Source: an uncultured Lachnospiraceae bacterium (GTDB lineage: Bacteria > Bacillota > Clostridia > Lachnospirales > Lachnospiraceae). From it: a stretch of 64,000 bases of DNA. Numbering within the stretch: the first letter of the stretch is position 1; the number at the start of each line of letters is the position of its first letter. The notes under the pieces are model-generated. The model was not told where the DNA came from. It did no database searches and saw nothing but the letters and a program-made list of their open reading frames with translations. The stretch covers positions 1-64,000 of the forward strand of contig CANQBX010000012.1 of assembly GCA_947589095.1 (NCBI GenBank), written 5' to 3'. Positions 21,527-22,713 of the stretch are shown in pieces. A program made the position numbers and the translations under genes.

Positions 21527-21766
21527 CTGATTTCCTCCTGACATGCAGACGCGGTCTTCCGTTTCCTTCGGCATACGGTAGCGCCTGTGTTATTGTCTTA
21601 AGTATACCACTGGACTGGCTCTTTGCGCTATATGTTTGTGTATAATTATGAAAAAATTTTGTGAGAGGACTGCCTGACATTGCAGATGCACTTATGGGAG
21701 AGTACTGGTTGGTGAGGGGCAATTCCGTCTGGTGGGGGTTACTGCGCACATGGTCGTGAAAGGTAC

Positions 21767-22005
21767 GCGAGAGGAAGTCCCGCCGCCTGCGCTCATAGTT
21801 CCGGATGGAAGAGGTTCTAAGACGCGAAACGGCCGCCTCCGGGGCACCGTCAAATTCGTGAGAAATCCTGAAAGGATTTCTCACTCAGCTTGCGCTCCGC
21901 CCCTGACTTGAGGTCAGGGGCTCCGACCCCGGAGGCGGCCGCTTCGCGCCTGAGAACCTCTAACCATCCTTCACAAATCGCGCAGACGGCGGGACTTCCT
22001 CTCGC
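21767..22005 (-). repeat. Long imperfect-palindrome element A (structured RNA/ssDNA candidate)
   Basis: Outer 19-bp perfect IR gcgagaggaagtcccgccg (21767-21785)/(21987-22005); nested pairing through agaggttct and cggccgcctccgggg/ccccggaggcggccg; apical perfect hairpins 21858-21868/21874-21884 and 21899-21907/21913-21921. Confidence 0.85.
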
Positions 22006-22079
22006 TGTGTTTCCGCGGGATGCAGGCGGTGAAATGTTGGCAGGAGGCAGCAGAAATGCGAAGATAGGGAGCGCCGCCG

Positions 22080-22147
22080 GTCAGAATGATCCTCAAAATC
22101 AGTAGAGCGCCGCTGTTTTCGTCAGAATGATCCTCAAAATCAGTAGA
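22080..22147. repeat. Two 27-bp direct repeats (gtcagaatgatcctcaaaatcagtaga)
   Basis: Identical copies at 22080-22106 and 22121-22147, 14-bp spacer. Confidence 0.9.
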
Positions 22148-22196
22148 TTTGAAAGATACAACCGCTCCTTCAAACCTTCTGCAGGCGATAACGCAG

Positions 22197-22448
22197 CGGG
22201 ACAGGCGGGGGCGGGGCACATCCCGGACGCGATTTACGAAGAAGGGTTAGTCTTTCTTAATGAAAAAACGCCAGTTTGAGGGTCGGAGCCCATGACCACA
22301 AGTCATGGGCGGAGCGGCAACCTGAGCGTGAACTCATCAGGAGTTCACGCGAATTTGCCGTTGCCCTCAAACCGGCGTTTTTGAATTTAGAAAGACTTCC
22401 CTTCGGAGTCATGAGCGTTCGGGATGTGCCCCGCCCCCGCCTGTCCCG
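22197..22448 (+). repeat. Long imperfect-palindrome element B, homologous core to element A in opposite orientation
   Basis: Outer 29-bp perfect IR cgggacaggcgggggcggggcacatcccg (22197-22225)/(22420-22448); nested agtctttct/agaaagact and aacgccagtttgaggg/ccctcaaaccggcgtt; apical hairpins 22288-22296/22302-22310 and 22326-22335/22341-22350. Confidence 0.85.
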
Positions 22449-22636
22449 CGTACCTCCCGCGACCACATAAGCAGATATTTTCGCTTTAAATACCCTTCCG
22501 AGAGTCACTATTTATGTCGCTAAACAACCTTTCCGCGTCTCCGCATTTATCGTTATAGTCCCCAACTCCGCATTTCCTCAAATTTTCGATTGCCATATCA
22601 TTTCCGCAGTGCTAATATAGTATAAACAGCAAAATA

Positions 22637-22713
22637 CGAAGAAAGTGTCACTGGCGCTTTCTTCGCATGGAAATACAGGAAACGTGCCACTGGCACGCTT
22701 TCTGCATGGAAAT
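22637..22713 (-). repeat. REP-like hairpin repeat, two tandem units (minus orientation)
   Basis: cgaagaaag...ctttcttcg and cgtgcc-act-ggcacg hairpins, each followed by gcatggaaat (reverse complement atttccatgc). Confidence 0.7.

Follow-up and report, generated by a model that had tools for sequence, protein, structure and literature searches.

Paired long hairpins with a T-shaped apex in Lachnospiraceae chromosomes: a candidate non-autonomous mobile dyad

REPs are dispersed sequences without open reading frames, which often occur as inverted, heterogeneous (HH/TT) dimers with different stems (PMC3733652). They lie within 20 bp of the 3′ ends of genes, either convergent or unidirectional, and their termini sometimes supply the stop codon; their movement is attributed to RAYT transposases, which need the unpaired bases of the hairpin (PMC3733652). 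The window analysed here is a stretch of 64,000 nucleotides from an uncultured Lachnospiraceae bacterium (GCA_947589095.1, contig CANQBX010000012.1), and its moxR–nfnB locus contains a pair of long hairpins, elements A and B, which belong to a family of such pairs (dyads). Like REPs, REPINs and BIMEs, the dyads are dispersed, have no open reading frame, form inverted pairs, often with two types of stem, and lie near the 3′ ends of flanking genes, the copy in the window being an exception; as REP termini sometimes do, the ends of dyads at the degV and gpsA genes probably supply stop codons. REPs are 20–40 bp, whereas the hairpins of the dyads are ~240–360 nt, i.e., about ten times longer, and have a T-shaped apex; furthermore, the dyad fold is common to several genera, and the hosts are Lachnospiraceae. 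No conserved GTAG/GGAG or CGTC tag was found at the foot of the hairpins; GGAG is seen repeatedly at the apex within the window's genus, but not in other genera. The REP family is the nearest known kind and the dyads look like a giant analogue, best filed as a variant rather than a member, because of their size, their branched apex and the retention of their fold between genera.

Other systems can be compared in the same way. With MITEs and foldback elements, the dyads share the lack of an open reading frame, the presence of terminal inverted repeats, and monomeric and miniature derivatives; in genome G241, moreover, most junctions have TA. They differ in having a conserved three-way junction and conserved mismatches; in addition, no partner transposase was found for them, and there is no clean duplication outside G241. 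ERIC and RU sequences are transcribed intergenic palindromes of enterobacteria, ~100–170 bp in length; these are single, shorter hairpins of conserved sequence, not paired dyads. Integron attC sites are folded single strands of DNA by a stop codon, in which the unpaired bases are conserved and the sequence of the stem is free. The dyads are far larger than attC sites and are inverted pairs at ordinary chromosomal genes, and neither an integron integrase nor a cassette array was noted near the copies examined (an unsystematic check of core sites).

The family was previously uncatalogued: no public model or paper was found that names these dyads. Rfam 15, a search of which the sequence-only reading had proposed, has no matching family at the gathering cut-off, and at relaxed thresholds gave only miRNA models at chance level. 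The phage and viral collections gave no match, and literature searches on Lachnospiraceae MITEs, on structured RNAs and on long inverted repeats between genes revealed no description of the dyads.

The unit in the window and its fold

The sequence-only reading had described A and B as near-perfect hairpins of ~240–250 nt in opposite orientations, with a common apex, apical helices that differ by compensatory changes, and outer stems that are unrelated in sequence yet each self-complementary. Each of these statements was borne out, including the sequences and coordinates of A and B, but the feature itself proved larger than had been thought. Comparison with the moxR–nfnB locus of relatives revealed that A and B each make up half of a single insertion of ~0.86 kb (Table 1), and that a 190 bp interior and 60–120 bp of flank beyond each hairpin were inserted along with them. 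In three close relatives (G004, G014, G018) the moxR–nfnB region is empty and otherwise intact; thus A, B and their flanks entered together. The simplest polarity is insertion in the lineage of the window, loss in the three relatives being a formal possibility. The unit is flanked by divergent genes, so that no gene reads into it, and its right end reads ...CCCCAACT, which resembles the TTGGG termini of units from other genera. A promoter-like site for nfnB (22590–22618) lies ~24 nt downstream of this end.

Table 1. Features of the dyad at the moxR–nfnB locus (positions in the window)
Feature	Position	Strand	Basis or remark
Complete dyad insertion (both hairpins, interior and outer flanks)	21703–22567	none	Same intergenic region in G004, G014 and G018; ends accurate to within a few bases
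Tail on the outer side of A, conserved (CGCGTACCTTTCACGACCATGTGCGCA on the minus strand)	21743–21769	−	Tail common to most copies in the genus
Element A (long hairpin, T-shaped apex)	21767–22005	−	Fold z −17.9; R1 match 21790–21981, minus strand, 203 bits
Interior direct repeat, copy 1 (GTCAGAATGATCCTCAAAATCAGTAGA)	22080–22106	+	Sequence
Interior direct repeat, copy 2	22121–22147	+	Sequence
Element B (long hairpin, T-shaped apex)	22197–22448	+	Fold z −20.0; R1 match 22229–22417, plus strand, 215 bits
Tail on the outer side of B, conserved (CGCGTACCTCCCGCGACCACATAAGCA)	22447–22474	+	Tail common to most copies in the genus

Folded as RNA, A (minus strand) reaches −188.7 kcal/mol and B (plus strand) −186.5, with none of 200 shuffled sequences as stable in either case (z-scores in Table 1). 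The DNA fold of B (z −19.0) is nearly the same as the RNA fold of its opposite strand (z −18.7), so folding alone is silent as to which strand or molecule matters. At the apex of both elements is a three-way (T) junction bearing two small hairpins. Beneath it are conserved internal mismatches, i.e., GCGATTT opposite CATGAGC and a CTTAG/CTTAG step with a T–T mismatch. The long stems that form the lowest part of the two hairpins are unrelated in sequence.

To assess covariation, 61 distinct copies from the genus were aligned without reference to structure, and their RNAalifold consensus was compared with shuffled and slid controls. In the alignment, 99.0% of cells are paired, compared with 87.3% in shuffles; both sides have changed in 29 of the 62 pairs; and the covariation score is 0.343, compared with 0.122 in shuffles, none of 500 shuffles being as high. 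Covariation, which the sequence-only reading had noted in A and B, is far above both controls. Between genera, the stem sequences share nothing; what persists is the CTTAG/CTTAG step and apical hairpin 2 (GnGAAnTCnTCAGGAnTTCnC), together with the flanking motifs CTGAG and GAAT. Single copies contain flips that extend the pairing (GGAG to CTCC), and such flips are a mark of hairpin-templated copying in DNA.

Distribution, geometry and position behind genes

Two covariance models were used: R1, built from the 61 genus copies, and R2, built from the matches of R1 in other genera. R1, used in a covariance search of the kind that had been proposed from the sequence, finds the fold in 8 other Lachnospiraceae genera (31–108 bits); R2 adds one further genus and two weak matches in other families of the order. 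Together, the models place the fold in 9 species of the window's genus and, outside it, in a minimum of 9 genera of Lachnospiraceae. The genome of the window has 12 sites with the core pattern, mostly A/B pairs in the same divergent arrangement, and 23 with R2. Copies per genome with R2 are 24 in G014, 36 in G021, 27 in G148, 16 in G109, 112 in G276, at least 75 in G241, and 92 in G040, the last being perhaps slightly inflated, as one contig of G040 (C35, L352) looks like a mirror-image assembly artefact. R2 found no copies in 17 genomes of the window's genus, and 389 of the 395 genomes in a sample of the order were without copies. Within the genus, the carriers that have a full-length NfnB are those whose NfnB is 96–98% identical to that of the window. 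In a scan of genome contigs, every clear match was to a rabbit-gut Lachnospiraceae assembly; a few matches in unrelated phyla look like chance matches to the pattern.

The arrangement of the hairpins is strict. A tally of neighbours within about 1 kb gave 55 pairs in the order (−,+), one (+,+), one (−,−) and none (+,−), i.e., all 55 of the opposite-strand pairs are divergent. Dyads are ~0.8–1.0 kb across the family. The units of G241 and G148 consist of an outer inverted repeat, a hairpin, an inner inverted repeat and a centre, followed by the mirror image of these parts. In G241, the terminal inverted repeats match and are mostly flanked by TA, and there are derivatives with the same ends: monomers of 327 and 361 bp and miniatures of 154–166 bp. 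In G148, terminal inverted repeats are present, but less strict, and no clean target-site duplication was found either there or in the window's genus.

The outer side of an element usually faces a gene that runs toward it. In G148, a complete genome, 21 of the 24 unit ends have the stop codon of the convergent gene 56–78 nt from the end of the model, whereas 0.013 such stops are expected in an interval of the same width (from their density at the same loci). The same distance recurs in G276, G217, G594 and G267, and in about a third of the copies in the window's genus; G241 and G040 are looser. A second empty site, which like that at moxR–nfnB answers the question of empty sites raised by the sequence-only reading, is found between the convergent tmcAL-like and degV-like genes, where G148 has a unit of 0.76 kb and its congeners have stop-to-stop spacers of 38 nt (G626), 14 nt (G624) and 33 nt (G625). 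The last codons at the degV and gpsA ends differ between species, so that the stop codon there is probably provided by the end of the unit itself.

At the gpsA–lysR locus, G626 has a different long dyad, also running from stop to stop, and a related one at a second locus. These belong to a second foldback family, unrelated in sequence and ~0.6–0.8 kb in length (L376–L395; e.g. at the loci matching L297 and L299), which has at least 5 copies in 400 kb and lies at the same stop-to-stop sites that the first family occupies in G148. Thus, stop-to-stop sites attract more than one family of dyads. In G004 and G014, the unit at an ABC-transporter locus comes after the terminator of the gene; in G021 it comes directly after the stop codon. 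G002 has no unit at this site, which may, however, be a remnant and not a virgin site.

Mobile unit, structured RNA or simple palindrome

We consider that A and B are probably the half-elements of a non-autonomous mobile dyad, usually situated at the 3′ ends of genes, whose folded strand would be recognised in trans by a putative enzyme. The unit is regarded as mobile because it is missing from three relatives of the window and because the G148 unit is missing from three congeners. A unit comprises two divergent long hairpins with conserved T-shaped apices and is dispersed over the chromosomes of Lachnospiraceae; its structure, pairing, dispersal and placement at 3′ ends are observed, the enzyme and the step through single-stranded DNA inferred. 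According to this proposal, the conserved loops and mismatches, set on otherwise free stems, would act as a recognition code for the enzyme supplied in trans. By analogy with the binding of REP hairpins by RAYT transposases, this enzyme would bind the folded strand, most likely as single-stranded DNA. Insertions would survive mainly just behind stop codons, because this would be the only harmless space, and single hairpins would arise later, as units decay through the loss of one hairpin. Several observations count against a mobile unit: no mobilising enzyme was found, no clean target-site duplication was seen in the genus or in G148, the hairpins are about ten times as long as REPs, the retention of the fold between genera, which is unusual for MITEs and REPs, could mean a function for the host, and a weak excess of G–U pairs on the gene-sense strand in two sets of copies hints at transcription or at selection on RNA.

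This excess comes from counts of outer-stem mismatches made without RNA bias, the contexts being distinct but not fully independent. On the element strand, A–C exceeds G–T by 53 to 23 in the genus (P 0.0008) and by 69 to 29 in G148 (P 7e-5), which is equivalent to a modest G–U excess on the gene-sense strand; in G241 and in a mixed set the two are balanced. The sequence-only reading had expected either a structured RNA or a folded, mobile single-stranded DNA. Structure and mobility stand (a fold that covaries across genera, dispersal, empty sites), but as to RNA or single-stranded DNA the wobble counts are mixed: significant in two sets and absent in two, they were rejected as proof of RNA. 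It is unlikely, though it deserves some weight, that the hairpins are structured 3′-UTR RNAs (stabilisers of mRNA 3′ ends, substrates of RNase III, or structures that block transcription), one dyad serving both convergent genes and mobility being secondary. Such a role would agree with the near-constant distance of the tail sides from convergent gene ends in several genera, with covariation alongside conserved loops, and with the G–U excess. However, transcription-associated mutation fits that excess as well as does selection on RNA, the copy in the window lies between divergent genes, and relatives live without the unit at the same loci. A role as an intrinsic terminator was also rejected, as the unit has no T-tract that would give a U-tract.

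Less probable again is an ordinary cut-and-paste MITE whose arms are palindromic merely because hairpin-templated repair copies one arm onto the other, the fold having no function. The terminal inverted repeats and TA junctions of G241, the flips in single copies, and the fully palindromic apex of one monomer (L277) all speak for it. Copying of arms would, however, erase mismatches, yet genera with unrelated stems retain both the mismatched motifs and the sequence of apical hairpin 2. That the hairpins are chance palindromes, or an assembly artefact of the window's genome alone, is scarcely credible: most of the assemblies are metagenomic and one copy-bearing contig is itself a mirror image, but the folds have z below −17 and the family is carried by many independent assemblies, including the single-contig G148 and G109, and this explanation was therefore rejected.

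A bolder version of the mobile dyad, which is possible but doubtful, is that the dyads form a separate class of mobile element. A covarying T-shaped hairpin of ~100 bp, present as an inverted pair, would then be the substrate of a dedicated putative recombinase acting on folded DNA or RNA. If this were true, elements that place themselves at stop codons would remodel, in each genome, from dozens to a hundred gene 3′ ends. Some genomes have more than 100 hairpins, and common gut bacteria thus carry long double-stranded structures behind their stop codons. A fold maintained by compensatory changes across genera is rare in a dispersed repeat; the dyads offer a handle on the recognition and mobilisation of folded strands, and on the effects of structure at mRNA 3′ ends.

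Some units have acquired other sequences. No mobilising enzyme was found: the unit-length G241 copies with open reading frames, considered as possible autonomous elements, proved to contain IS1182-family and IS3-family insertions (L274, L273), whose transposases are passengers. The presence of these elements inside the units suggests that dyad palindromes are targets for insertion. Another apparent copy with open reading frames, L073, is just two single hairpins 2.5 kb apart with ordinary genes between them, and the open reading frame at 2613–3947 of L143 is of low complexity and probably spurious. The interiors of other pairs also contain short tandem repeats; in L078, L083, L085 and L087 these are minisatellite-like, roughly 30–45 bp, and specific to the locus. 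In three copies of G021 (L059, L068, L099), the tail behind the hairpin has grown into short tandem repeats (CGTATCTTTCG-like). The leader of nfnB (22634–22711) contains two short hairpin repeats, with a consensus of about ATACnnnnnnnGTGTCACTGGCnCnnnnnnnGCATGGAA, of which relatives have 0–3 copies at this position; the same short repeats are inserted within long hairpins at L045, L049, L062 and L063.
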